A stretch of 32,110 nucleotides of DNA from Chloroflexota bacterium (GTDB taxonomy: Bacteria > Chloroflexota > Anaerolineae > Anaerolineales > Villigracilaceae). Below, in pieces: positions 6,431 to 31,761 of this stretch. Every line of letters begins with the position of its first letter. The stretch's first letter is position 1. The position numbers and the translations under genes were made by a program. The notes under the pieces were generated by a model, which did not search any database, was not told the origin of the DNA, and worked only from the letters and a program-made list of their open reading frames with translations. The DNA lies in assembly GCA_016235425.1 (NCBI GenBank), contig JACRLC010000056.1:1-32110 (forward strand), read 5' to 3'.

Positions 6431-7954
6431 TTACCTGCGGCAATCGTTTGCGATCACAGAAAAATCGTACAGGTTCGGCACGGGCGAAAAATAACTTACG
6501 TCGTCGAGAATATCATACTTCCCGCCGAAATATGCGTTGAAAATCAGGCGGAACGAATTGACCGGCGAGACGGTTGGATAAAGCTCGTCGTTGTGGCCGG
6601 GTAAATAATACGCGTTGAGAATCCACATGCGCTTGTTCTTCGGTTGCAGCCACGGGCCGTGATCGCCCTGGAAGATGATGATGGGCGGCGTTTCTGACTC
6701 GGCAAGGATTGTATCCACCGCGGCCAGCACCTCGTCGTTCAAATGCTGTAACTGATTGACGTAGCCTTTTTCATACAGGCCGGGCGGGTACTGGCGATTC
6801 TCATTCCAGAAATCGGGCGGGTAGGTTGGGTTGCCTTCGGGGTCGAACACAAACGGCGGGTGCGGCGAAATGACGTGGATGTAGGCGAACGTCGGCTCCT
6901 TCATGCGCGCCAGATCGTCCACGTGATCGAAAATATTATTGAAGCGGTCGCGGAAACTTTGTCCCATCACCGCATCGGGGTCCACCCAGCCCCAATCGTT
7001 GATGTAACGCGCCAGCGTGGTACGCAGGAACAGACCTTCGAACTCGCTCAGGCCGGAGGAAAAAGGCGGCGGCGAAAGAAACACATCGGCATCTTCCAAC
7101 TCGTTCCACGCAAAGCCGGTCGCGAAGTTCACCGTGGTATAGCCCATACTCTCAAAGTTATATCGCACCGCGCTGTGCTTGAGCGAATCCCATAACACGC
7201 GGCGCGCGGTGCTCTCCGGCTTGAAGTCATCGTCGAGTTCCTGCAAATACATCATATTCAGTGACGAAGCCAGCGAAATCTCCGTCCGCACGTAATTGCT
7301 CTGACTGCACTGCCCCACGTAAAAGCCGCGTTCCTCCAGCGCGCTGATGAACCCGCTGTTGTCGAATTCATAGGCCGAATAAAGATTATCTGCGCGGCCA
7401 TAGGAATCGAGGATGAAATAATAGACATCGGGAGGACTCTCCGGTTTAACCAGGTCAGACTGCACCGGGGCTTTCTCCGCTCCCAAAGCATGTGCGCTTC
7501 TCAACCTGGACCCGGGGTTGACCTGCCACAAAGACATGATCACCAGCCCAAGCGCGATCACGTTAAGATTCGCCGCCGAGGAGGCAAAATTCAACTTTGG
7601 CCGCGTCGCCCACCAAAGGGTGAGGAGGAACAAAACGCTCCATCCGCCTGCCAGCCACGGGTCGAGATTGAAATCTGGATATTTTTCGCTCAGCAGGTTG
7701 CAGGCATGCCCATACGAAAAGAACAAGACCAGCCAGAGCGTCGTGAGAAACGCGGCGCGATGTGACTGTCTCATGAACAGCCGCAAAACGAAAAACAAGA
7801 CATTCCCCAACGCGACCGAAACCAGCAGGGAACGGATTCCCGCCTCAGGCTGGATTTGTCCCGTGTTCGTGGAGAGCAATGCCAAAACCGGGTACGCGCT
7901 AAACGCAATCGGATACCAGGGGATATTGAATTTTTCTAAAATTATTTTTTTCAT
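6431..7954 (-). CDS. Membrane-anchored alkaline phosphatase superfamily protein (sulfatase/LtaS-like)
   Basis: A 507-residue protein with about five N-terminal membrane helices (residues 1-150) followed by an extracytoplasmic catalytic domain. The domain opens with PDVYYFILDSYGRADNL (metal-binding Asp). It carries RTEISLAS, where a Thr is a plausible nucleophile, and ends with the metal-binding motif QGDHGPW. There is no CxPxR formylglycine motif, so this is unlikely to be a true sulfatase. It looks more like LtaS or phosphoethanolamine transferases that move phospho-groups from lipids onto glycans. Its stop is 1 bp before the dehydrogenase start. A role in adding or removing a charged substituent outside the membrane fits the locus. 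Confidence 0.75.
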   Translation of the reverse strand: MKKIILEKFNIPWYPIAFSAYPVLALLSTNTGQIQPEAGIRSLLVSVALGNVLFFVLRLFMRQSHRAAFLTTLWLVLFFSYGHACNLLSEKYPDFNLDPWLAGGWSVLFLLTLWWATRPKLNFASSAANLNVIALGLVIMSLWQVNPGSRLRSAHALGAEKAPVQSDLVKPESPPDVYYFILDSYGRADNLYSAYEFDNSGFISALEERGFYVGQCSQSNYVRTEISLASSLNMMYLQELDDDFKPESTARRVLWDSLKHSAVRYNFESMGYTTVNFATGFAWNELEDADVFLSPPPFSSGLSEFEGLFLRTTLARYINDWGWVDPDAVMGQSFRDRFNNIFDHVDDLARMKEPTFAYIHVISPHPPFVFDPEGNPTYPPDFWNENRQYPPGLYEKGYVNQLQHLNDEVLAAVDTILAESETPPIIIFQGDHGPWLQPKNKRMWILNAYYLPGHNDELYPTVSPVNSFRLIFNAYFGGKYDILDDVSYFSPVPNLYDFSVIANDCRR

Positions 7955-7993
7955 AAGCCTGTTCTACAAATTAAAATTTGTCCTCATTCCCGG

Positions 7994-8029
7994 CCTATCT
8001 CCTTTTTGGGAAGAGGGTCAAGGTGATGG
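7994..8029. repeat. Degenerate dispersed repeat overlapping a stop codon
   Basis: CTATCTCCTTTTTGGGAAG followed by AGGGTCAAGGTGATGG is a worn copy of the G/C-rich hairpin family seen at 2781 and 24187. Its minus-strand reading provides the stop codon (8018-8020) of the 677-residue membrane protein and its last residues, QPSP. Confidence 0.45.
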
Positions 8030-10051
8030 TTGTTCACAAAAAAACTTTCCAATCAATCCACGAATCTCCTCGTTCACCGACTCGGATTGCATAAAATCCG
8101 TCATCAACTCACAAGCCTGCACTTGCAGGAAATGATCCGCGCTCACGATTCTGGAGAGACCGCGCACCTGCTCCGCGTCACCCAGAACAGCATAAGCCTG
8201 AATGAACGGCATCCATTCAACGCTGTCTTCGGGGTAATGCCCGTTTTGGAGAGCTTCTCTGTGCAAAGCAGGGATCGCGTCCCAATCGCCGAGCTGACGG
8301 GCAAGGTCGGCTTGCTCAAAATAATAACACCAGCCACGCTCAGGCTCTACGCCGAAAACCGTTTTGAGCGGCGGAGCATGTTTCCCATCCAACAACACAT
8401 TCTCGATCTTCGATTCCGGCGCGACCGCCATGATCCGCTGGTCATCCGACGCGGAAAGTTCGGGCTGGGTCCCATTCAACACGCGCACACAGGCACGCTC
8501 GTTCGGCTGGGTCAGCACGAGCACATTGCCATAATCCATCAGGATGTGAGTGTTGCGGCGATCGGGTTCGTTCTGTCCATTGCCGGTCATTATCCGCAAA
8601 ACATTTTCAGGAGTAAGAAGCACCGCCGAAACGGGAGCCTCCACCGGCCTGGTCGTTTGCGGATCCGGGTAATAGATCAAGTTTGCCGCGCCCCAGACGA
8701 AATAGTCCTCCTGGATGGGCGCGGGATAATTCACCGCCAGCGTCGTGCCGGGCCTCAATTGCGGAATCCGCCACGATACCTGCCACCAAAAATTCCGCGC
8801 GGTCTCAAAGTCCCTGGCCGAGTTGGACGCGTTGGCATAATGCGTCATCACCGCGCTGATAGTCAACAATCCAACCAAAGCCAGCCGCAAGCGCGGCGCA
8901 CTCAGGTAATAAAGCATGGACACCAGCACCATCGCACTGCCGACCGAACTTGCCAGCGCGTAACGCGAATAACTGATGAGTTCCACGTGGCGATTGACCA
9001 AAATGACCGGGATCAGCCCGGCCACCGCGCTGACCAATCCCACCCACAACGCTTCCTCCCGCCAATTGGATTCATGCGCTTCCTCCTCGGACCTCGAACC
9101 TGCCGCCGTTAAATAAGCAGTCAACGCCGCCCCAACCGCGAAGGCCAAAATGAATCCGATCCACGTTTCGCTCAGGCGCAGGTTAAAACCGAGGGTATAG
9201 AATGGCACACCCCACGCCAAAAATGTGACACTGAACGTATCCTGGATCGTCCGCGCCAGCCACCAGAGTCCTGTTTGAAGCGGCGAGGCAAGCAACTGCC
9301 CGAACTGCAAACCCACATCGGTCGCGCCGCGTTCGCTCGTAAAGAAGAACAAACGCCAAACGAGAAATGCCAACGGTCCAATCGAAAATGGAAGCCAAAC
9401 TCGCGCCGTCTGCGTCAGCCTTTCGCGAAACGTTGACCGTTCGCGGTGAGCAACGACGAGGTACACACACAGCACGCGCAATACTTCGAGACCGAGAAAA
9501 TATTCCACCAGCCCAAGATAGATCCATGCCAGCAGGGCGGATAGGCCAGCCCAAAATATTTTCGCGGCAGGCTTATCGGAGATCATCGCTTTTATAGTCA
9601 GCGCCAGGGAAGTCATCGCGGCCCACAGGCTGATGATTTGCGACTGGTAATCAATTGGGTTGACTTGTGATAGAAAGCCGGGATAGACCAGGAAGAATAA
9701 TGAAATCAGCAGGTTGGGCTTGCGGTTGCGCGGCCAGAGCTTATGCAGCAACCACAAGAGACTGACAGCCCCCAGCAGTCGAAACACGTAGGCATTGATG
9801 TGGTAAGGCAGGGGGGCATCGCCAAAAAGCGCGTAGGTTGGACCGAGGACGAAGGCACGCAGGGGGCGGTCGCGTTCAAAGGCCGGACCAAAAAATTCAG
9901 AGCCTTGCACGTGCGCGCCAAACATCAAATACCAGTCATCATTGGCGTAACCGAGCCGGGCGACCAACGGCAAATACGTCAGCGCCGAAACGACCAGCAA
10001 CACGAAGACACCCATCCAGAAGGAGCCATCAACACGGATTTTATTTCTCAC
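8018..10051 (-). CDS. Large GT-C-like polytopic membrane protein
   Basis: A 677-residue protein with about ten to twelve membrane segments in its first 440 residues and a soluble C-terminal domain of about 230 residues. The first outer loop has RLGYANDDWYLMFG, an acidic Asp-Asp motif at the place where GT-C glycosyltransferases keep the catalytic Asp. The start is GTG at 10051, supported by AGGAG about nine bases upstream. It begins 3 bp after the cytidylyltransferase stop, so they form one unit. It may transfer a lipid-linked sugar at the outer membrane face. Sequence similarity to named enzymes is weak. The 3' end is formed by a dispersed repeat, so the last few residues may not be ancestral. 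Confidence 0.75.
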   Translation of the reverse strand: MRNKIRVDGSFWMGVFVLLVVSALTYLPLVARLGYANDDWYLMFGAHVQGSEFFGPAFERDRPLRAFVLGPTYALFGDAPLPYHINAYVFRLLGAVSLLWLLHKLWPRNRKPNLLISLFFLVYPGFLSQVNPIDYQSQIISLWAAMTSLALTIKAMISDKPAAKIFWAGLSALLAWIYLGLVEYFLGLEVLRVLCVYLVVAHRERSTFRERLTQTARVWLPFSIGPLAFLVWRLFFFTSERGATDVGLQFGQLLASPLQTGLWWLARTIQDTFSVTFLAWGVPFYTLGFNLRLSETWIGFILAFAVGAALTAYLTAAGSRSEEEAHESNWREEALWVGLVSAVAGLIPVILVNRHVELISYSRYALASSVGSAMVLVSMLYYLSAPRLRLALVGLLTISAVMTHYANASNSARDFETARNFWWQVSWRIPQLRPGTTLAVNYPAPIQEDYFVWGAANLIYYPDPQTTRPVEAPVSAVLLTPENVLRIMTGNGQNEPDRRNTHILMDYGNVLVLTQPNERACVRVLNGTQPELSASDDQRIMAVAPESKIENVLLDGKHAPPLKTVFGVEPERGWCYYFEQADLARQLGDWDAIPALHREALQNGHYPEDSVEWMPFIQAYAVLGDAEQVRGLSRIVSADHFLQVQACELMTDFMQSESVNEEIRGLIGKFFCEQPSP

Positions 10052-10054
10052 CGA

Positions 10055-10732
10055 TCACTTCTCCTGGGAAGACTTCCGGCGCATGAGGAAATCTGTTATT
10101 TCAAAATCAAGTTCTTCGTCAATATCCCACGCTTCGTCGGCGTCAATCTCGAACATCAACGGGTGGCCGCTGATGCGGTGGCGTTTCGCCATCAAATTTT
10201 CGCGGGTGAAAATATAAATGCAGGAATTTTCCTCGTACACGGGCGGCAAATCCTGCGTCTGGATCAGTTCATTGGGATTGTGGTTGATGGCCTTTCCGTG
10301 CTGGTCGTACAGGCGGGTTTGGAGGCGCGTCACAGAAAAGAGGGAGTCGTAGGTGGGGTAATTGGTAATTAGTGATTGGATGGCACGCGAAATCGTTTCA
10401 GGTTTAAGCAGGGGATTCGTGCTGTGCGTCTGCAAATAGAAATCAGAAGGGACTTGTTCCGTGTCATACAGCAGTATCTCGTTCATCGGGACATCATCCG
10501 CGCGGAGGTGTTCGGGGCGATTGAGGACTTTGACTTGTGGAAAGTGCCGGCGCAGGCCTTCCATCACCGGGTCAGAGTCGGTATCTACGACGATTTGGTC
10601 AATTTCAGGGACGGCGAGGAGCGTTTCGATGATGTGGTGAAAAAGCGGCTTTCCCGCCAGCGGGCGATAGTTCTTGCCAGGCACACGCTGGCTGTGATGA
10701 CGCATGGGAACGAGGGCAACGAGTTGGAACAT
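10055..10732 (-). CDS. CMP-nonulosonate synthetase-like cytidylyltransferase
   Basis: A 225-residue nucleotidyltransferase of the NeuA/KdsB type, expected to activate an acidic sugar with CTP. The N-terminus LVALVPMRHHSQRVPGKNYR is a variant of the PARGGSKRxPxKN nucleotide-binding loop, with HHSQR replacing GGSKR. IVVDTDSDPV supplies the metal/nucleotide region, and DADEAWDIDEELDFEI the C-terminal acidic motif. It is a different subfamily from the cytidylyltransferase domain at 20994-22235, so two different acidic sugars (or a sugar and a relative) may be activated. A pyrimidine-rich leader with no good ribosome binding site precedes the ATG. It heads a unit with the downstream GT-C-like gene. 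Confidence 0.82.
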   Translation of the reverse strand: MFQLVALVPMRHHSQRVPGKNYRPLAGKPLFHHIIETLLAVPEIDQIVVDTDSDPVMEGLRRHFPQVKVLNRPEHLRADDVPMNEILLYDTEQVPSDFYLQTHSTNPLLKPETISRAIQSLITNYPTYDSLFSVTRLQTRLYDQHGKAINHNPNELIQTQDLPPVYEENSCIYIFTRENLMAKRHRISGHPLMFEIDADEAWDIDEELDFEITDFLMRRKSSQEK

Positions 10733-12535: not shown

Positions 12536-13393
12536 TTACCAGTCATTATCCTTCTCATATCCCAGCTTGATCAACAAATCTCCTGCCACATCCTTGAAGA
12601 TGCGTTTATGCTCCTCCTTGAAATGCTTCTTCCATTCGCCGGTCTTGCCTGAACGGAAGGTCGGAGACTTTGTCGGGTTGATGGAGGATTCGAGGGAATT
12701 TAGAATCAGTTGTCGGGGCGCGTGAAGCGGGGCGCGGGTGAGGAAGTGGTCCATGATGCAGGTCAATGTTGAGGCGCGGTTGTTGATCAAGTCTTCGAAA
12801 TGAATCGTCAGCACTTCGGGATGGTCGGGCCAGCCGAGGTAAGGTGCGAAGCGGTCAGCGATGTCGGGGAATTCAATGCCAGCATCAGGGCGGCCAAGGA
12901 TGCTTGTTTTTAGGCGCGAGTCAAAGTCGGGGAGGGAGGTGTAGTAGTCGTGATGGACGTGGCGGGATTCCATGTCGGTCACGTAAAAAACGTGCGAGAC
13001 GACCACGTCGCGCGGGTCTCGAAAAATGAAGTATGGGATGAAGACTGGCGAACACACGCGAACGATTGCATCAGGCCGCGCAAAGAGATGGGCGGAGGCA
13101 ATGTCGCAAGGACGAAGGGAATCGAGCCAGGCGAGGGCCTGTTCGGGGGCGCGCTTGCGTCCGCTTTCGCCTTCGTATTCGGCGTAGAATGAGTGCAGGC
13201 GGCGGGAGAAGGGCGCGACATTCGAGAAGCCGAGCAGGATTTGGTCAAGGAGGTGCGTGCCGCTTTTGGGAAAGGAGATGCCGAGCAGGGTCGGCCAGCC
13301 GTTTTGAGGGGCAGTGGTGTTCGCAAAGCGGGCGCGCTGGGCGAGTTTTTCGGTCTGGTAGAGGGTGCGGCGAAGGGACGATTTCAAAGTCAT
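12536..13393 (-). CDS. Sulfotransferase (PAPS-dependent)
   Basis: A 285-residue enzyme expected to transfer sulfate from PAPS to a hydroxyl of a glycan or similar acceptor. The 5'-phosphosulfate loop FPKSGTHLL is at residues 41-49, the 3'-phosphate motif FRDPRDVVVSH at residues 124-134, and the C-terminal RSGKTGEWK matches the RxGxxGxWK motif. A His in IASAHLFAR near residue 102 is a candidate base. Its last about 40 residues (KDVAGDLL, LGYEKDNDW) are nearly repeated in the sulfotransferases at 19223 and 30730, so the three are paralogs. PAPS would come from the enzyme at 25395-27119. Confidence 0.9.
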   Translation of the reverse strand: MTLKSSLRRTLYQTEKLAQRARFANTTAPQNGWPTLLGISFPKSGTHLLDQILLGFSNVAPFSRRLHSFYAEYEGESGRKRAPEQALAWLDSLRPCDIASAHLFARPDAIVRVCSPVFIPYFIFRDPRDVVVSHVFYVTDMESRHVHHDYYTSLPDFDSRLKTSILGRPDAGIEFPDIADRFAPYLGWPDHPEVLTIHFEDLINNRASTLTCIMDHFLTRAPLHAPRQLILNSLESSINPTKSPTFRSGKTGEWKKHFKEEHKRIFKDVAGDLLIKLGYEKDNDW

Positions 13394-16058: not shown

Positions 16059-16406
16059 CTATATCCCCAATAGCTTTTTCAACTCAATATTCACTTGTTC
16101 CATGATGGGTGGCTCAATGACTCCAATCTTTTTCATAATACGCCGCTTATCAATTGCGCGCAGTTGAAAGATGAGTATCACGGAGGGCATGCTCAACCCA
16201 TTTTGCTTTGATGGTTTAATCAAGATCGTGTGTGAAAAGTTCTGTGCTGTCAAATTGCTGGTCATAGGGATAATCATAACAACAGACAAATTCACGCTGG
16301 TGGCATCATCATGCACTACCAGCGCGGGTCTGGAACCAGTTTGTTCATGCCCACTGGTCCCCGCGACCTGTGGCAAATCTACCAAAACAATGTCACCCCT
16401 CTGCAT
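16059..16406 (-). CDS. MazF/PemK-family endoribonuclease toxin
   Basis: A 115-residue toxin. MQRGDIVLVDLPQ, then GHEQTGSRPALVVHD and MIIPMTSNL are the family's conserved blocks; the Arg in SRPALVV and the Thr in IPMTS match the catalytic Arg and Thr positions. These enzymes cut mRNA at short sequences. The gene starts 2 bp after the stop of the small upstream gene and is the third member of an overlapping operon. All recognisable catalytic residues are present. Confidence 0.85.
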   Translation of the reverse strand: MQRGDIVLVDLPQVAGTSGHEQTGSRPALVVHDDATSVNLSVVMIIPMTSNLTAQNFSHTILIKPSKQNGLSMPSVILIFQLRAIDKRRIMKKIGVIEPPIMEQVNIELKKLLGI

Positions 16407-17497: not shown

Positions 17498-19162
17498 CTA
17501 CTCCTCCCTCAGCAGAAAATCCCCACCCTCTAGCACCCCCTCCGTAATCACCCTCACCGCCTCCGACCTCATCAACCCATCCAACCCAAATGGCTTCAAC
17601 CGTGTCTGCGTGGTTCTCACGGACGGCTCAAGAAACTCACCAAACGGCAGAGATGTTTTAAACAACTGGTAATACAAAAACCTGCGCGCATTGCGTTTGA
17701 ACTCAGGCGGGACATCAATCGTTTCAGCACCCAAAAATTCTTTTATCTTTCTTCTTACATCTTCAATTGTTTGCGGGAAGAACACGGTGGGATACTGCGT
17801 GAAACGCGCCTTGCCCGCGCACAGCACCGCCGCGCCCATGATCGAAGCCTCTAGCCCGATCGTCGAGTTATAGACCATCACGAACTTCGACTTCTGGATC
17901 AACTCATACGAACTCAGCGTCTCGTTGGGAGCCACGAAGACCACGTTCGGTTCTTCGTCCGCGCGGCTGGCTTCGACCCAGGCCGCCACCGTCTCGCGGC
18001 TGGCTTTGCGGACGCGTAACTCGTCAGGGTGGGCGCGGATCACGAACAACGTCTCAGGGTGGGCGCGGATGACTTCCAAAACCAAATCGAGCCAATCGAA
18101 CATATCTCCAAAAACAGTGTTGGCGTGCGGCTGGCTCGTATCAAAAATAACGTTCGTAAAGATGGGGACGATCTGTTTGAACCCCGCCGCCTTTTGCAAA
18201 AATGACTCATCGAGTCCCTTCATGTCCGCCCAAAATTTGATCCCTGCCATTGTGAAGTCGCCTTGGAAACGCTTCGCAAGATACGCGTCGAGTTTCGCGT
18301 TTTGTTCCTCGTTCATCTCAAACGACTCGGGGATCGCAATCGGGTACGCTGTCGCTTCGCCATCGGTGAAGAACGCGGACGCGGGCTGCAGTCCCACCTC
18401 GTGTGTGATCACACGAATGCCGCGTTTCTGCGCGATGTAACGCGCGGTCGCTTCGGGGAAGAACTGCCCATTGAACACGATCACAGCCCGCGGCTGAGTC
18501 TGATCGAGAAAGTCCGCAAACTTTTGAGCGACATTCCACGCCGACAAAATATATTCCCTGAAAAGATAACGCGTCGATTCGTCGTCATTCAGATGATGGA
18601 TTCGCAGGATCCATCGCAAGCCAGGCAGACACAACGCGCCGAGCGGAATCCCCTCCCAGGCAAAGCGCATCATCTCTTCGACCGATAAACCTGCCACCGC
18701 TTCGATGAGTTTTTCATCACGCTGGAAGTTGAACCATCGCACCCCACTCTGGAGGCCGGAAGTTTGCTTCTGAACATCCGACAGCAAGCTGTCGGACTCC
18801 AGAACGGGTAACCCTGTATAAAGCGCACGTGATTGATAGACACAGGATTTGCACGGCATTTCCTTGTGTGGATTGTCCCGATTCGTCCCCAATACACATT
18901 TGCTCATGCCAGAGTTGCATGCAAAATACGCAACGGGAATCCCCTGCAACCGAAACGCCCACGACGCCAGCAGATGAAACCCGCTGTTCCACGAGAGATC
19001 GTCAATGCCCGTGGACGCTTTGAAGAAGACGATGGGCGCGCCCTGTACAGATGGCGAGTGGCGCGTGACAAGTTGAGCCATGCCGACTATTTTGAGATTG
19101 TTAATTCTGCGGACAAGTCCGCGCTGGATGTGTTGTTTGAAGAATTCTCTCATGAAAGACAT
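17498..19162 (-). CDS. Capsule polysaccharide-type GT-B glycosyltransferase
   Basis: A 554-residue soluble protein. The C-terminal half has the capsule-synthesis/CDP-glycerol transferase-like fold: LFVIRAHPDELRVRKAS, PNETLSSYELIQKS, and YNSTIGLEASIMGAAVL, the latter being the nucleotide-binding region of such enzymes. The N-terminal half includes a Cys cluster (SKCVLG, then MPCKSCVYQS), suggesting a bound metal. RGIRVITHEVGLQP marks the central active-site region. It would assemble a surface polysaccharide or transfer a phosphate-linked unit. ATGs at 19162 and 19153 both fit. An in-frame 9-bp hairpin lies at 18777-18796. It follows the sulfotransferase gene in the same direction, with a 60-base gap. 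Confidence 0.78.
   Translation of the reverse strand: MSFMREFFKQHIQRGLVRRINNLKIVGMAQLVTRHSPSVQGAPIVFFKASTGIDDLSWNSGFHLLASWAFRLQGIPVAYFACNSGMSKCVLGTNRDNPHKEMPCKSCVYQSRALYTGLPVLESDSLLSDVQKQTSGLQSGVRWFNFQRDEKLIEAVAGLSVEEMMRFAWEGIPLGALCLPGLRWILRIHHLNDDESTRYLFREYILSAWNVAQKFADFLDQTQPRAVIVFNGQFFPEATARYIAQKRGIRVITHEVGLQPASAFFTDGEATAYPIAIPESFEMNEEQNAKLDAYLAKRFQGDFTMAGIKFWADMKGLDESFLQKAAGFKQIVPIFTNVIFDTSQPHANTVFGDMFDWLDLVLEVIRAHPETLFVIRAHPDELRVRKASRETVAAWVEASRADEEPNVVFVAPNETLSSYELIQKSKFVMVYNSTIGLEASIMGAAVLCAGKARFTQYPTVFFPQTIEDVRRKIKEFLGAETIDVPPEFKRNARRFLYYQLFKTSLPFGEFLEPSVRTTQTRLKPFGLDGLMRSEAVRVITEGVLEGGDFLLREE
18777..18796. repeat. 9-bp hairpin inside the capsule-type gene
   Basis: TCCGACAGC AA GCTGTCGGA is a perfect palindromic stem in the coding region, read in frame as LESDSLLSDVQ. 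The strength of the stem is unusual for coding sequence and suggests an inserted short repeat. Confidence 0.6.
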
Positions 19163-19222: not shown

Positions 19223-20077
19223 TTACCAATCGTTGCTTTTTTCATATCCCAGCCTCACCAACAAATCCCCTGCCACATCCTTGAATAATTTCTTGCATTC
19301 CTCGGTGAAATATTCTTTCCAGCCGCCCGTCGTCCCTGAGCGGAAGGTGAGACTCTTCCTCGGCTGGATCACATTCACCAAAATGGACAGTGCCTTTTGG
19401 CGCGGCGTGGGAATTCGATAGCCTGTCTTTTCCACTTCATCGAGCATGGCATTCAACGTGGCGTCACGGTTATTGATCAAATCTTCAAAGCGGACGCACA
19501 TCACGTTCTTTTGCTCGAGCCACTGGAATACCCCTTCGTATCTCTGCCGAACATTGACCATGTACAACCCGTCGCGGTCAATGCCTGTGATCGCCACTTT
19601 GAGTCTCGCACCGAAATCCGGCAGTGAATTGTAATAATCGTGCATCCCATGTTCTTCGTGCATGTCGGTCGCGAAGAAGACCTGCGAGACGAGCATGTCC
19701 CTCGGGTCGCGATAAATGAAATAGTTCACGCGCCCGCTTGAGGCCAGGAAGGAGGCGTTTTCGGGCGTCGCGTCCACGTAGCCCCAACCGATCACGCCGC
19801 GGGGAACGCGTCGCAAATCCTCAAGCACATGGTCAACGGTCCTCCGTCCACCGTCCTTGTTGATCGTCCGAACCGGTTCCGCCTCCACATACATGTACGG
19901 CATGATCTGCGTAAAGCCGTTGAGAATCTGCAACAACAAATGTGACCCGCTCTTCGGCTTGGAGTTGCCAAAGATGGGCGGCGCGTCATTGAAGGATAAT
20001 CGCTTCCAACGCCACACCGCCTGAGCGGTCTTACCTGCCGGCCTTAATCTGCGGCGAATTTTTTGAGCCGGATTCAT
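19223..20077 (-). CDS. Sulfotransferase (PAPS-dependent)
   Basis: A 284-residue enzyme with the 5'-phosphosulfate loop KPKSGSHLL at residues 40-48, the 3'-phosphate motif YRDPRDMLVSQ at residues 122-132, and RSGTTGGWK near the C-terminus. The C-terminal FKDVAGDLLVRLGYEKSNDW is nearly that of the 12536 enzyme, so these are duplicated paralogs with different acceptor regions. It starts 35 bp after the neuB-like stop and is likely cotranscribed with nonulosonate synthesis, so the acceptor may carry that sugar (inference). Confidence 0.9.
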   Translation of the reverse strand: MNPAQKIRRRLRPAGKTAQAVWRWKRLSFNDAPPIFGNSKPKSGSHLLLQILNGFTQIMPYMYVEAEPVRTINKDGGRRTVDHVLEDLRRVPRGVIGWGYVDATPENASFLASSGRVNYFIYRDPRDMLVSQVFFATDMHEEHGMHDYYNSLPDFGARLKVAITGIDRDGLYMVNVRQRYEGVFQWLEQKNVMCVRFEDLINNRDATLNAMLDEVEKTGYRIPTPRQKALSILVNVIQPRKSLTFRSGTTGGWKEYFTEECKKLFKDVAGDLLVRLGYEKSNDW

Positions 20078-20112: not shown

Positions 20113-20997
20113 TTATTCCTCACCATTCACGCGGCGCAACTTCTTCAACGAGGACCGTTCGCTCGCGTACACCTTCTTCACGCCGTCGCCAAGCGAAGCT
20201 TCCGTCACGCGGATGTACTTGACCAACCGCTCGAAGCCGCCCGGCTCAACCGAGGCGGCCTGGTCACTGCCCCACATGGCGCGGTCGAGTGTGAGGTGGC
20301 GTTCGACCATGCAAGCGCCCAGCGCAACAGCAACAGCCGACGGAACCAGGCCGACTTCATGTCCCGAATATCCAATCGGCAGTTTCGGAAATTCGCGGCG
20401 CAATGTTTCCACCATTTTGAGGTTCAACTCTTCCGGCTCGCATGGATACGTGCTGGTGCAGTGCATCAGCACCAAATCCTTTTCACCGGCGATCTTCACG
20501 CCCTCGTGAATTTGCTCCATCGTGGACATGCCGGAAGATAAAATGATCGGCTTGCCGGTGGTGCGGGCGTGTTTGATCAGTTTGTGATCCGTGAGTGAAG
20601 CGGACGGGATTTTGTAGGCGGGCGTGTCGAATTTTTCCATGAAGTCCACGGAGGGTTCATCCCAAACCGAAACCATCCATGTGATCTTCTTCTGCTTACA
20701 ATACTTTTCAATCTCGTGATATTGCTTTTCGTTGAACTCAACTTTATAGCGATAATCCAAATACGTGATGTAGCCCCACGGCGTCTCGCGCATTTGCTTT
20801 TGCTGTTCGGGCGGCGTGCAGACTTCGGGCGTGCGCTTCTGAAATTTCACCGCGTCCGCGCCTGCGTGAACCGCCGCGTCGATCATCTGCCTGGCGATCT
20901 CGATATCGCCGTTATGATTGATGCCGATCTCGGCGATCACAAACGCGGGATGACCATCCCCCACCATTCTATTTCCAAATTTAATTTCACGAGTCAT
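20113..20997 (-). CDS. neuB: N-acetylneuraminate synthase-like (NeuB), lacking the SAF domain
   Basis: A 294-residue enzyme expected to condense phosphoenolpyruvate with a six-carbon amino sugar to a nine-carbon nonulosonic acid. VIAEIGINHNGD (about residue 20), KFQKRTPE, ILSSGMSTM, HCTSTYPCEPEELNL, GYSGHEVG and VERHLTLDR are all NeuB barrel motifs. The start is 20997, not the ATG 12 codons earlier: AGGAG lies six bases upstream and the ATG overlaps the upstream stop (ATGA). The chain ends straight after the barrel (KKLRRVNGEE). The usual C-terminal SAF/antifreeze-like domain of about 60 residues is absent. Which sugar it makes cannot be told. Confidence 0.88.
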   Translation of the reverse strand: MTREIKFGNRMVGDGHPAFVIAEIGINHNGDIEIARQMIDAAVHAGADAVKFQKRTPEVCTPPEQQKQMRETPWGYITYLDYRYKVEFNEKQYHEIEKYCKQKKITWMVSVWDEPSVDFMEKFDTPAYKIPSASLTDHKLIKHARTTGKPIILSSGMSTMEQIHEGVKIAGEKDLVLMHCTSTYPCEPEELNLKMVETLRREFPKLPIGYSGHEVGLVPSAVAVALGACMVERHLTLDRAMWGSDQAASVEPGGFERLVKYIRVTEASLGDGVKKVYASERSSLKKLRRVNGEE

Positions 20998-22235
20998 TTT
21001 TTCTCCTGGATATTTTTCAAAATCAATTCGCACAATTCACGCAACGCGCCAAAACCACCGTTGGTTTTCAACACATAGTCCGCCGCGCGCAATACTTCGG
21101 GATATGCATCCGCTACAGCCACAGCCCAGCCTGCCGCTTCAAAGCATGGCAGGTCGTTGAAATCATTGCCAACATACACGATCTGCGCCGCGTCCAAATT
21201 CTTCTCGGCTAGAAACTTTTTGAGGACATTACCCTTGTCGTGAAGGTCCACACCGTGGATCGCATCAATGCCCATCTTCTTCGCCCGCGCTTTGACAACG
21301 GGATTCACCTCTGAGGACAAAATCATGACATCGATCCCGCGCTCGCGCATTTGACGAATCCGCATCGAATCGGACCTCGAGGCGGCTACCGTTTCGCGGC
21401 CATTTTCATCCACCCAGACGCGCCCGTCGGTAATGACGCCGTCGAAATCACTGACGATCAATTTGATATGTTCGGGCATCTGACGGCGCGTACGATTTTC
21501 AGGTGCGACCATCTCAAGTCCGCTGTATACCAATGCTTCGTACTTTGCCCAATCAGGGAGGGTATCAATGTCAACCGTGTAACGCGGATCAATCACGAGC
21601 GGATAGATGACATTGCCTGTCAGGGATTTTTTGCTTGTGATCGTGGAGAGGCGGATGGCGTCAATGTGGCCGGTCTGCCAGTAAACAGGAGGCAGGATTT
21701 GCCGCGGTGCGTTGAAGGGTTCGGGAATGCCATCCACTTCGAGCAAGGGTTGCATGGCTTTGTCTTCGCCGGCGAATCGCCACATCTTGTGAGGGTTCTG
21801 CCCGGCAGGCACAACACCGCGGACGCAATCTGCATCCACATGGGCAAGCAGGATGCGGACAGCATCGTCCACCATGCCGCGCGGGCGGATTGGCGACGTG
21901 GGCCGCAACTGCACAACGACTTCAGGCTTGCAGCCTTCCACTTCTTCCAGAAATTTCAAGGCATGCTCAAAGACGGGCAAATCGGTCGTTCGATCCTGTG
22001 CGAGTTCGGGCGGGCGCAGAAACGGAGTCTCAGCGCCGTATTCGCGGGCGACCGCGGCGATTTCAGGATCATCCGTCGAGACGATAACACGCGTGACACA
22101 CGCGGCTTGTTTGGCCGCGGCGATACTCCAGGCGATCAACGGATAGCCAGCAAACGAGCGGATGTTTTTACGCGGGATGCCTTTTGAGCCGCCGCGGGCG
22201 GGGATGAGGGCGAGGGTTTCTACCACGCCGTCCAT
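20994..22235 (-). CDS. CMP-nonulosonate synthetase fused to a HAD (KdsC-like) phosphatase
   Basis: A 413-residue two-domain protein. Residues 1-240 are an acylneuraminate cytidylyltransferase (LIPARGGSKGIPRKN, QLRPTSPIRP, VDIDTLPDWA) that would join CMP to a nonulosonic acid. Residues 255-413 are a HAD phosphatase with D263-F-D265, LSS (307-308), K334 and GNDFND (D358), all catalytic residues present. Similar fusions are known in animal CMP-sialate synthetases and some bacteria. The ATG at 22235 directly abuts GGAGG; a GTG three codons later (22226) has better spacing and may be the true start. It overlaps the SDR by 16 bp and neuB by 4 bp. Confidence 0.88.
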   Translation of the reverse strand: MDGVVETLALIPARGGSKGIPRKNIRSFAGYPLIAWSIAAAKQAACVTRVIVSTDDPEIAAVAREYGAETPFLRPPELAQDRTTDLPVFEHALKFLEEVEGCKPEVVVQLRPTSPIRPRGMVDDAVRILLAHVDADCVRGVVPAGQNPHKMWRFAGEDKAMQPLLEVDGIPEPFNAPRQILPPVYWQTGHIDAIRLSTITSKKSLTGNVIYPLVIDPRYTVDIDTLPDWAKYEALVYSGLEMVAPENRTRRQMPEHIKLIVSDFDGVITDGRVWVDENGRETVAASRSDSMRIRQMRERGIDVMILSSEVNPVVKARAKKMGIDAIHGVDLHDKGNVLKKFLAEKNLDAAQIVYVGNDFNDLPCFEAAGWAVAVADAYPEVLRAADYVLKTNGGFGALRELCELILKNIQEKK

Positions 22236-23047
22236 CCTCCATCAACGATGACATTGTTGCCCGTCATGTAGGATGATGCGTCCGATGCGAGGAACAGCAA
22301 CGCGCCGTTCATTTCGTCTTTCTCTGCCATGCGGCCGAGGATGGTCTTGGCGGAATAATTTTTGACGAAGTATTCCTCGTGATTATTGAACACGCCGCCG
22401 GGGGTGAGCGCGTTGACGCGGATTTCTGTCCCGGCATAATAGGCGGCGAGATATTTGGTGAAGCCCATCACACCCGCTTTGGTGGTGGTGTAATAAACCG
22501 GCTTGTAGGCCACGCGTTTTCCGTCTTTGATGTAGATGCGCTGGTCGGGGCCGTTGAGTCCGTAGGTGGAACAGATGTTGATGATACTGCCCTTCCTGCC
22601 CTGCTCGATCATCGGCTTGACGCAGGCTTGCGTGACGAGAAACATGCCAGTGAGATTGACATTCAAAGCCGCGTTCCACTGTTCGAGCGGATAATCCTCA
22701 AATGCGCCGGGGGCGATGCCTTTCGCGGCCGCATCGGGGTCGAACTTGGGATCGAGCGCGGCGCTGTTGACGAGGATGTCGAGACGGCCAAATCTTTTCA
22801 GGGTCTCGGCAACCAGCTCACGGGTCGATTCGATGCGGGTGACATCAAGCGGGAAAGGGATCGAGATGTAGCCGGATTCGGTTAAGCGGGTTGATGTCCG
22901 GGTGGCGAGTTCCAAATTTAAATCCGCACAGACAACGGCCGCGCCTGCCTCAGCGAGGGTCTTGCAAAACTCGAAGCCCAACAGCCCCCCGCCGCCCGTG
23001 ACGATGGCCACGCGGTCTTTCAAATTGAATTTATCGAAAATCGTCAT
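22220..23047 (-). CDS. SDR oxidoreductase, PtmA-like
   Basis: A 275-residue NAD(P)-dependent SDR. IVTGGGGLLGFEF is the Rossmann motif, and the catalytic residues are Ser in ICSTYG and the YTTTK pair; YMTGNNVIVDGGW closes the C-terminus. Its length and position beside neuB and a CMP-synthetase resemble the PtmA-type oxidoreductases in legionaminic acid and flagellar glycan clusters, so a sugar or CMP-sugar substrate is likely (inference). AGGA lies six bases before the ATG. It overlaps the downstream fused enzyme and starts the SDR-synthetase-neuB unit. Confidence 0.88.
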   Translation of the reverse strand: MTIFDKFNLKDRVAIVTGGGGLLGFEFCKTLAEAGAAVVCADLNLELATRTSTRLTESGYISIPFPLDVTRIESTRELVAETLKRFGRLDILVNSAALDPKFDPDAAAKGIAPGAFEDYPLEQWNAALNVNLTGMFLVTQACVKPMIEQGRKGSIINICSTYGLNGPDQRIYIKDGKRVAYKPVYYTTTKAGVMGFTKYLAAYYAGTEIRVNALTPGGVFNNHEEYFVKNYSAKTILGRMAEKDEMNGALLFLASDASSYMTGNNVIVDGGWTAW

Positions 23048-25394: not shown

Positions 25395-27173
<1,779 letters not shown>

Positions 27174-27282: not shown

Positions 27283-27588
27283 ATGAAAAGCCGGGTTCTC
27301 ATCCATGACCTTGAGTTGACGCGTAAAATTGTTTTAGAAAACTTGAAAGGTTATCGCGCCAAAGCATATTTATTCGGGTCACAGGCAACCGGGAAAGCCT
27401 ATCTCTATTCCGACATTGATGTCGCCATTCTGCCTTTACAGCCATTACCTCCGTCCCTCTTTTTCAACCTTCGGGATGCGCTTGAAGAAAGCGATGTCGT
27501 ACGAACTGTGGATGTGGTTGATTTGCGGGAAGTGGACGAAAAATTTCATGAAAGGGTCGTAAAAGAAGGTATTTTATGGACAGAGTAG
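27283..27588 (+). CDS. MNT-type nucleotidyltransferase (HI0073-like)
   Basis: A 101-residue protein with G32-S33, ten residues, then D44-x-D46 (LFGSQATGKAYLYSDIDVAI), and a third Asp in VRTVDVVDL. It is the nucleotidyltransferase half of a module like Haemophilus HI0073/HI0074. It overlaps the partner by 13 bp. Its start was placed by the initial ATG, which follows a TATAAT by six bases. It is divergent from the PAPS synthetase gene. Confidence 0.88.
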   Translation: MKSRVLIHDLELTRKIVLENLKGYRAKAYLFGSQATGKAYLYSDIDVAILPLQPLPPSLFFNLRDALEESDVVRTVDVVDLREVDEKFHERVVKEGILWTE

Positions 27589-27971
27589 AAGAACTTCCTG
27601 GCTTTGCGCTAAAGGCATTGATAACATTCGAAAAACTTGTTAACCTCCCCAGCCCTTCAGACGTTGAGCGTGACGCGGCCATTCAGCGATTCGAATATAC
27701 TTTTGAGACTGCATGGAAAACCGCGCAAGTTTACCTGGCCGATCGCGAATTACTGGAAAGCGCCTCCCCGAAAGGCGTGATTCGCGGCTGCTTCAAGGCA
27801 GGCATATTCGATGAGGAGACCGCCGAAAAAATTATGGGAATTGCCAATGATCGCAATTTAACCGTACACACTTACAAGGAAGAATTCGCTATTCAGTTGT
27901 ATTCGCGCCTCTCACATCACGCCGCGTTGTTGCGTCGGTGGCTGATGGAAATTCAAAAAAGAATTACCTGA
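27576..27971 (+). CDS. HEPN-family partner (HI0074-like)
   Basis: A 131-residue all-helical protein. R93-N-L-T-V-H98-T-Y100 is the RX4HxY motif of HEPN toxins; the family is often labelled 'nucleotidyltransferase substrate-binding protein' (HI0074-like). QRFEYTFETAWKTAQVYL is the conserved first helix. It is translated from a start within the upstream gene. The active residues are intact, so it is predicted to be an RNase controlled by AMPylation of Tyr100, by analogy with HepT. Confidence 0.88.
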   Translation: MDRVEELPGFALKALITFEKLVNLPSPSDVERDAAIQRFEYTFETAWKTAQVYLADRELLESASPKGVIRGCFKAGIFDEETAEKIMGIANDRNLTVHTYKEEFAIQLYSRLSHHAALLRRWLMEIQKRIT

Positions 27972-30729: not shown

Positions 30730-31761
30730 CTACCAATTCAAATCCTTCTCGTATCCCCATTTCACCAACATCTCCCCCGCGGCTTCCTTGAACACAGCTT
30801 TGTCTTTCTCCGTGAAGAGGCGCGCCCAGTTGCCGGCCTGTCCCTTTGGCAGGAAGGACGAGATGTCGCCGTTGCGGCGGGCTTGCCACTCCTCGTCGGG
30901 ATTGGACGTCATTTCTTCAACGATGGTCTTCTCCAACGACCTGTCCGCCTGGACGCCGAGGAATTTCCAGAGTTTTTGCATTTCATCAAAGGGATGTGCA
31001 AGCAGGTCTTCGTATCTCATGCCGTAGTAATTTTCACCGAGCAGCCTTCGACCCTCATCTTCGGTCTCTTGCAAGTTCGTTACCCAGCCCTTTGCCACGC
31101 GGCGGATGACAGCTTCAGTAAAGATCGAACGAGTACCATTCGTGAATTGGGCTTGATCTTTACGCAATTCTTCAATGATACGCTTGTCTTCAATTTTCAA
31201 AAATTTAGACTCTTCCACCAAATTGCGGAATCTTTCAGAGATCAGAACATCGCGTCCATCGCGGACGATGTACACCAGTTTCGCGTCAGGATAAACGGCG
31301 TGCATGTCGCGCACCGCCTGTCCGTGAATCGTGGACGAGGGACTCTTGTCGCCAACAATGCGTTTGCCTTCGCGGATAGCGTCGCGCTCCATGATGAAGT
31401 CCGCGGCGGCGCGCAGGACGAGCGGCGAAAGATCGCGTCCCTGATTCCAGCGGTTGGACTTGCGCGTCAGCCACTCCTCCACTTCGGGGGTATTCACCAG
31501 CGACTTGAGCAACGGCTGGCGTGTGAAGAAATGCGCCTGATAGTTGCAGTGCACTTCAGGGTGCAGGCGAATGAGGCGCATGAGGAGTGTTGTCCCTGAG
31601 CGAGCGTGGCCGAAGATGAAGAACTTTTCACGGGGAAAGAACTGCTTGATCTCCGCCACTTCTTCAGGTGTGATGGCGGGGATGGGGTTGCGTTTATTCT
31701 TTTTGGTGTCACCCTTGAGGAGGATGCGGGCGGCAGATTTTATGCGAGCAAGAAATTGCAT
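30730..31761 (-). CDS. Sulfotransferase (PAPS-dependent), longer form
   Basis: A 343-residue sulfotransferase. The P-loop ARSGTTLLM starts at residue 53, and the 3'-phosphate motif VRDGRDVLIS is at residues 166-175. GQAGNW near the end corresponds to GxxGxW. The C-terminal FKEAAGEMLVKWGYEKDLNW resembles the two shorter enzymes, though the rest is more diverged and includes an extra N-terminal 45 residues. It may act on a different acceptor. It is the third sulfotransferase in the window, next to a sugar dehydrogenase. Confidence 0.9.
   Translation of the reverse strand: MQFLARIKSAARILLKGDTKKNKRNPIPAITPEEVAEIKQFFPREKFFIFGHARSGTTLLMRLIRLHPEVHCNYQAHFFTRQPLLKSLVNTPEVEEWLTRKSNRWNQGRDLSPLVLRAAADFIMERDAIREGKRIVGDKSPSSTIHGQAVRDMHAVYPDAKLVYIVRDGRDVLISERFRNLVEESKFLKIEDKRIIEELRKDQAQFTNGTRSIFTEAVIRRVAKGWVTNLQETEDEGRRLLGENYYGMRYEDLLAHPFDEMQKLWKFLGVQADRSLEKTIVEEMTSNPDEEWQARRNGDISSFLPKGQAGNWARLFTEKDKAVFKEAAGEMLVKWGYEKDLNW

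Follow-up and report, generated by a model that had tools for sequence, protein, structure and literature searches.

A fused CMP-nonulosonate synthetase/HAD phosphatase beside a SAF-less NeuB in Chloroflexota: a candidate phosphorylated route to CMP-Kdn

Phosphorylated nonulosonate routes and the enzymes they share

The route from mannose 6-phosphate through 3-deoxynonulosonate (Kdn) 9-phosphate to CMP-Kdn is established in Bacteroides and Prymnesium (PMC6200933). In Bacteroides thetaiotaomicron the Kdn-9-phosphate phosphatase is BT1713 (PDB 3e81), a protein of the haloacid dehalogenase (HAD) superfamily, which works alongside the Kdn-9-phosphate synthase BT1714 and a CMP synthetase (PMC6200933). 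Here we describe a gene of similar equipment from a Chloroflexota bacterium (assembly GCA_016235425.1), in which a CMP-nonulosonate synthetase is fused to an HAD phosphatase domain and lies next to a NeuB-type synthase; the whole stretch analysed, 32,110 nucleotides of contig JACRLC010000056.1, is referred to as the window. Its HAD domain is of the same subtype as BT1713 and matches it in the set Glu56, Arg64 and Lys67 (Bacteroides numbering); it differs from BT1713, which is stand-alone, in having GND rather than GDD in motif IV, in scoring under the NCBIfam cut-off and in not grouping with it in a tree. An initial annotation, made from the letters of the window alone, had set the phosphorylated route against the typical bacterial one; this route is nevertheless not foreign to bacteria, Bacteroides being its reference case (PMC6200933).

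The vertebrate CMP synthetase CMAS/CSS (PDB 3ewi) has the same order of synthetase and HAD and also has Asn in place of the first motif IV Asp, but the mouse tail lacks the nucleophile, whereas the window HAD keeps its catalytic residues. Lewis et al., in PNAS in 2009, reportedly pointed out that bacterial CMP synthetases can carry an HAD-type C-terminal domain. The same is stated for "some types of bacteria" in a paper that also notes that the mouse CMAS tail showed no phosphatase activity (PMC8636478). The Kdo-8-phosphate phosphatase KdsC/YrbI shares the HAD fold and subfamily with the window domain and differs in having Arg and a residue other than Lys at the two specificity positions, in being unfused and in having other pathway genes around it. 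The GND motif and the Glu/Lys pair are shared by 3mmz, an uncharacterised 176-residue chain from Streptomyces avermitilis. Finally, a NeuB-SAF-AP_endonuc_2 architecture is known from Serratia marcescens KL1/KL2 and Leptospira interrogans; Serratia makes Kdn and N-acetylneuraminic acid (Neu5Ac) with it (PMC9000132), and for Leptospira an animal-like phosphorylated route was proposed by the authors (PMC3438082).

The fusion protein and its catalytic residues

The open reading frame that fills positions 20994-22235 is read along the minus strand, from 22235 to 20994, and encodes 413 amino acids; Pfam, NCBIfam and PDB matches confirm both the gene and the synthetase/HAD fusion that the initial annotation had placed there. 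Its cytidylyltransferase domain spans about residues 1-240 (21516-22235, minus strand; domain coordinates follow from residue numbers). Pfam CTP_transf_3 matches residues 9-128 over its cut-off (E 6.2e-20), the NCBIfam PseF model covers residues 8-234 with 149.8 bits, not reaching the equivalog cut-off of 205.7, and the top fold matches of the fusion are the V. cholerae and A. caviae synthetases. The Pfam and fold matches together place the domain in the NeuA/PseF group of cytidylyltransferases. The KdsC-type HAD domain, at about residues 253-408 (21012-21479, minus strand), is covered by NCBIfam KdsC-type models, of which the KdsC subfamily model TIGR01670 is borderline, at 105 and 107.8 bits in two runs against a cut-off of 106.95. 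The closest solved structure by sequence is 3mmz, an HAD hydrolase (130.9 bits, E 5.6e-37), followed by CMP synthetases of the NeuA group, and 3mmz is also the best fold match of the HAD half, at 45% identity. The structure model has a mean predicted local distance difference test score (pLDDT) of 81.6, with three stretches of the HAD half (269-272, 279-281 and 284-289) below 50.

D263, D265, K334 and D358, which the initial annotation had named, are all present at those numbers. Alignment assigns D263-F-D265 to motif I (21441-21449, minus strand), at the nucleophile and acid/base positions; S307 to motif II, together with Glu309, Arg317 and Lys320, which align with E56, R64 and K67 of the Bacteroides phosphatase (21276-21317, minus strand); K334 to motif III (21234-21236, minus strand); and N357-D358-F-N-D361 to motif IV (21153-21167, minus strand). 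In motif IV, G102-D103-D104-L-N-D107 of 3e81 aligns with G356-N357-D358-F-N-D361 of the window, so that D358 is the second Asp and the first is replaced by N357. The first motif IV Asp is a metal ligand in YrbI/KdsC. Thus the earlier description of the HAD residues as all intact is right for the four named, as well as for S307 and D361, and slightly overstated, because N357 occupies a catalytic-site position that had not been named.

To place these residues in context, 112 distinct HAD domains were collected from 155 matching frames after removal of rows that were identical, below 60 bits or shorter than 110 residues. Fused to a cytidylyltransferase are 104 of them: 80 from genome contigs, 15 from a genome search, 8 from plasmids, and the window. 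DxD in motif I, Ser in motif II, Lys in motif III and N-D-x-x-D in motif IV are common to all 104, as are Glu, Arg and Lys at Bacteroides positions 56, 64 and 67 (E309, R317 and K320 in the window). A 31-sequence alignment drawn from Chloroflexota and Alphaproteobacteria shows no variation in these catalytic residues. In contrast, position 56 is Arg in all six KdsC/YrbI references, and position 67 is Thr, Ser, Asp or Ala. Glu56 and Lys67 are specificity residues of the Kdn-9-phosphate phosphatase; PDB 4hgq and 4hgr carry Ala substitutions at these positions, reportedly made by Daughtry et al. in 2013 to probe specificity. Since the Asn, all other catalytic residues and the Glu/Lys pair are kept in 104 of 104 fused HADs, the motif IV Asn does not look like decay but like a lineage trait.

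A NeuB type that accompanies the fused HAD

The adjacent NeuB-type synthase (20113-20997, minus strand) begins at an ATG at 20997 that overlaps the fusion's stop codon, the list of open reading frames giving a GTG start at 21033. Its barrel matches with 272 bits and the SAF (antifreeze-like) domain is not matched, whereas the C105 paralogue of the same genome does have SAF. SAF was then scored in NeuBs from 301 Chloroflexota genomes, covering 79 of the 80 places listed beyond the window's own genome (all but G248:C57), by a local model with which Pfam agreed on the seven proteins checked. Of 25 clearly SAF-less NeuBs, 23 stand beside a fused HAD, compared with none of 50 SAF-bearing NeuBs; seven of the latter adjoin a standalone HAD, and four NeuBs with a weak SAF score have no HAD. 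The association extends to plasmids of Sinorhizobium, Ensifer, Maritalea, Azospirillum and Nonomuraea, on which six SAF-less NeuBs adjoin a fused HAD. For the pooled table, Fisher's test yields 6e-13, a value to be read with the rows being related by descent. In a NeuB tree from which identical barrels and barrels shorter than 230 residues were left out, fused HADs accompany two distant SAF-less groups, one of them rhizobial, and the fused HADs themselves occur on at least two cytidylyltransferase backgrounds.

SAF loss was rejected as a strict marker of an HAD, given the HAD-less SAF-less NeuBs in phage-type contigs and the seven SAF-bearing NeuBs beside standalone HADs. The reverse rule holds in the sample: no fused HAD has a SAF-bearing NeuB within 2.5 kb. 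In the residue comparison, five of the seven standalone HADs are neighbours of SAF-bearing NeuBs from Chloroflexota, and these five share the Glu/Lys pair. These standalone HADs of other Chloroflexota (L119-L123) have GDD in motif IV and may represent a second, putative Bacteroides-like phosphorylated route in the phylum. Separately, one viral contig (L155) has a SAF-less NeuB, a 359-residue synthetase frame and a diverged HAD-like frame nearby.

In Nonomuraea gerenzanensis, one 742-codon frame (L130, positions 7806-10031) comprises a cytidylyltransferase, an HAD and a SAF-less NeuB (CTP_transf_3 at residues 67-274, HAD at 286-434, NeuB at 489-724); its HAD reaches 169 bits with the local model and is sub-threshold in Pfam. 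This frame is the strongest sign that the three enzymes would work in series.

Relatives of the synthetase (P0001) that pass E 1e-30 occur in 55 of 61 genomes of the window's family, as the fused form in 53 and as a synthetase only in two, G302 and G321. In these two the operon context is kept and a 640-residue NeuB-SAF-AP_endonuc_2 protein, of the Serratia and Leptospira architecture, takes the NeuB position; unlike in the window, the CMP synthetase lacks an HAD, and none was found in the surrounding 16.5 and 18 kb even with filters off, the whole genomes not having been searched at a low threshold. In the tree the HAD-less synthetases fall outside the fused Anaerolineales clade, as its sister (97/98 for the 24 rows of fused type), and the two NeuBs are 77% identical, so the pair counts as a single contrast. 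This weakens the pair as proof that an HAD was lost when NeuB was replaced, and the change may have run in either direction. Tandem synthetases, one with an HAD and one or more without, were seen in G312 and G326 (L240 and L241), and G326 carries two SAF-less NeuBs.

Phylogeny of the HAD domain

In a tree of 43 rows that took in 14 of the 80 fused HADs from genome contigs, the GND-type HADs (the fused ones, 3mmz and a standalone one, L118) form one clade of 31 rows with support 95/94. The Bacteroides enzyme, KdsC and the standalone HADs that adjoin NeuB in other Chloroflexota all fall outside it. A constraint that joined KdsC and the fused HADs in a single clade was marginally rejected by the approximately unbiased test (p-AU 0.047). 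The initial annotation had proposed a phylogeny against the inactive CMAS tails as a check, and here the outcome is divided: the mouse tail is a long branch adjoining the GND clade, with weak support (84/56), and is not inside it, and forcing it into the f1 group gave p-AU 0.060. Without the viral row its placement rises to 90/85, while the GND clade itself has 71/82.

Proposed pathway and its alternatives

We consider it probable, from these comparisons, that the locus encodes a phosphorylated nonulosonate route running from mannose 6-phosphate through Kdn 9-phosphate and Kdn to CMP-Kdn, with all activities inferred. The SAF-less NeuB would condense a hexose 6-phosphate, here mannose 6-phosphate, with phosphoenolpyruvate to a nonulosonate 9-phosphate (Kdn 9-phosphate), the HAD half of the fusion would hydrolyse the 9-phosphate to Kdn, and the cytidylyltransferase half would convert Kdn to CMP-Kdn. 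Glycosyltransferases and sulfotransferases of the locus, with a synthetase of 3'-phosphoadenosine 5'-phosphosulfate (PAPS), could then build a sulfated Kdn-bearing glycan. The initial annotation had reasoned that an active HAD implies a phosphorylated intermediate, which constrains the substrate of NeuB. Extended to a phosphorylated hexose for NeuB, this is well supported as an argument from comparison, because the catalytic residues and the Glu/Lys pair are invariant, the HAD and NeuB types are coupled, the Nonomuraea frame joins the three enzymes and no known source of N-acetylmannosamine (ManNAc) was found in the genome; within it, phosphatase activity, a metal role for Asn357 and both the carbon length and the identity of the sugar stand as predictions.

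The genome content bears on the sugar. In the window's genome the NanE and N-acetylglucosamine (GlcNAc) 2-epimerase families gave no match and NeuC none over its cut-off, leaving no known ManNAc source among these three families (ManNAc kinases were not searched for). Two proteins stay below the NeuC cut-off, at 72 and 55 bits, and reach 383 and 359 bits when scored against the broader Epimerase_2 family. KdsA likewise has no match over its cut-off, three weaker ones reaching 114-132 bits against 314, and a bifunctional phosphoglucose/phosphomannose isomerase is matched (bact-PGI_C). Because of this combination, mannose 6-phosphate would be the simplest and most economical substrate for NeuB. 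Across the 61 family genomes, NanE occurs in 2, GlcNAc 2-epimerase in 8, NeuC over cut-off in 5, KdsA over cut-off in 2 and the isomerase in 52; the fused form is found in 53 of them, compared with 5 for NeuC. In one genome that has NeuC (G018), NeuC adjoins a SAF-bearing NeuB and an HAD-less synthetase, and the fused form is on another contig. Rhizobial K-antigens were considered as evidence of the product and gave no support, the accessible text of PMC4881576 naming Kdo and pseudaminic acid derivatives and not Kdn.

The same phosphorylated chemistry could instead act on ManNAc 6-phosphate and give CMP-Neu5Ac through Neu5Ac 9-phosphate, as in animals. SAF-independent chemistry is possible in principle, and in some Alphaproteobacterial fusion loci there is an AGE epimerase together with a gene annotated as a GT42-type sialyltransferase, but the epimerase families unmatched in the window's genome and the sub-threshold NeuC make this alternative unlikely. 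Slightly less likely again is that the HAD half, like the tail of vertebrate CMAS, serves oligomerisation and not catalysis: the fusion architecture, the Asn that opens the N-D pair of motif IV and the weakly supported place of the mouse tail as nearest outsider of the fused clade all speak for it, yet in the mouse tail the nucleophile position is Asn (Asn-Ile-Asp) and Glu replaces the second Asp of motif IV, while the window and the other fused HADs, 104 of 104, have Asp at both, and a structural role poorly explains the Nonomuraea frame or the link to one NeuB type. That the route makes another sugar, from a hexose 6-phosphate first altered by a short-chain dehydrogenase/reductase (SDR) or a Gfo/Idh/MocA oxidoreductase, seems improbable; genes for these are frequent in related loci (SDR in 77 of 80, Gfo/Idh/MocA in 43 of 80), but no SDR adjoins the fusion in S. 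meliloti, Tritonibacter and Marinovum, so the SDR would not be needed for the core chemistry and could act on another sugar. A Kdo route, in which the HAD would be KdsC and the synthetase KdsB, is very improbable and was rejected. Against the HAD scores at the KdsC-family threshold stand a synthase of the NeuB family, KdsA under cut-off and the Glu/Lys pair in place of the KdsC residues, in addition to the marginal rejection of a joint clade.

Returning to the mannose 6-phosphate route, several findings weigh against it or limit its reach. Asn357 at the first motif IV Asp is what the mouse CMAS tail has. The HAD half scores under cut-off both with the Kdn-9-phosphate phosphatase model NF058599 (94.9 bits against a curated 180) and with the KdsC equivalog NF007019 (117.8 bits against 208, E 4.1e-34), and grouping of the Bacteroides phosphatase with the fused HADs was neither recovered nor rejected (p-AU 0.208). 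The coupling to SAF-less NeuBs has exceptions: 2 of the 25 in Chloroflexota and 13 of 14 distinct viral rows have no HAD in view, and two of the eight plasmid fusions lack a SAF-less NeuB within 2.5 kb. For one of them, L127 from Tritonibacter, the closest NeuB is a SAF-bearing PseI at a distance of 3.5 kb; for the other, L129 from Marinovum, no NeuB was found in the stretch examined. Furthermore, the NeuB tree has only three SAF changes and four fusion changes, hence few independent events. Three Alphaproteobacterial fusion loci have an AGE epimerase, which would fit ManNAc over mannose, and the conserved SDR is left without a role.

Neighbouring genes

The fusion gene is flanked by a conserved set of genes, all on the minus strand in the window. 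The end of an SDR oxidoreductase gene (22220-23047) overlaps the fusion start by 16 bases; because of this overlap and that of the NeuB ATG with the fusion stop, SDR, fusion and NeuB are, by prediction, translationally coupled. Beyond NeuB lie a sulfotransferase-like protein (19223-20077), identified by family match and conservation in related loci, and a capsule-synthesis-like glycosyltransferase candidate from Pfam and NCBIfam searches (17498-19162), and at 25395-27119 is a sulfate adenylyltransferase/adenylylsulfate kinase for PAPS supply (NF004040, 828 bits against a cut-off of 669). Of 156 relatives, the best 80 served as related loci; almost all of these have Chloroflexota or Anaerolineae in their titles. 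NeuB is present in 76 of the 80, and beside the fusion in 74 of the 74 with room for it; with room considered, SDR occurs in 75 of 77, PAPS synthetase in 55 of 60 (64 of 80 overall) and the adjoining sulfotransferase in 63 of 69 (66 of 80). The recurring order among the loci listed is PAPS synthetase, PMT-like protein, SDR, fusion, NeuB, sulfotransferase and capsule-type protein.

Some further features of the window were noted. It has three sulfotransferase-like proteins (12536-13393, 19223-20077 and 30730-31761) in the same locus as the PAPS synthetase. A second CTP_transf_3 protein of 225 amino acids (10055-10732) recurs in 12 of the 80 related loci with other parts of a downstream block. 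Next to it, at 8018-10051, is a 677-residue protein without a Pfam or NCBIfam match, copies of which, 28-45% identical, stand next to the gene for PAPS synthetase in several related loci; a further copy, 39% identical, is near another NeuB in the window's genome. Adjoining nucleotidyltransferase and HEPN-type frames of the MNT/HepT toxin-antitoxin kind (27283-27971) and a PemK/MazF-like protein (16059-16406) are also present.

Novelty and implications

In the literature searched, we did not find described the pairing with a SAF-less NeuB, the GND signature or the three-enzyme frame; the bacterial synthetase-HAD fusion as such was already known. For the pairing of SAF-less NeuB and fused HAD in particular, no description was recognised in a search whose coverage mostly excludes subscription papers. 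More tentatively, and with more doubt than confidence, the fused GND synthetase-HAD with its SAF-less NeuB may be a separate and widespread bacterial 9-phosphate module, in which SAF loss would go with a phosphorylated hexose, Asn would take part in the metal site of the phosphatase and the inactive tail of vertebrate CMAS would be a relic of the bacterial fusion. The fused HADs offer a test of the origin of that inactive vertebrate CMAS HAD tail.

The possible wider relevance lies in environmental glycans. Three of four granular sludges had Kdn as their second most abundant nonulosonate, sulfated glycans were common in that material as well, and Kdn and Neu5Ac synthases are said to be at present indistinguishable by genome annotation (PMC10483923). 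Linking the locus to sludge Kdn is our own suggestion and not that of the paper, which in its accessible text names neither Chloroflexi nor Anaerolineae (PMC10483923). The combination of the fusion, the Glu/Lys pair and a SAF-less NeuB would give a simple marker for the phosphorylated route.

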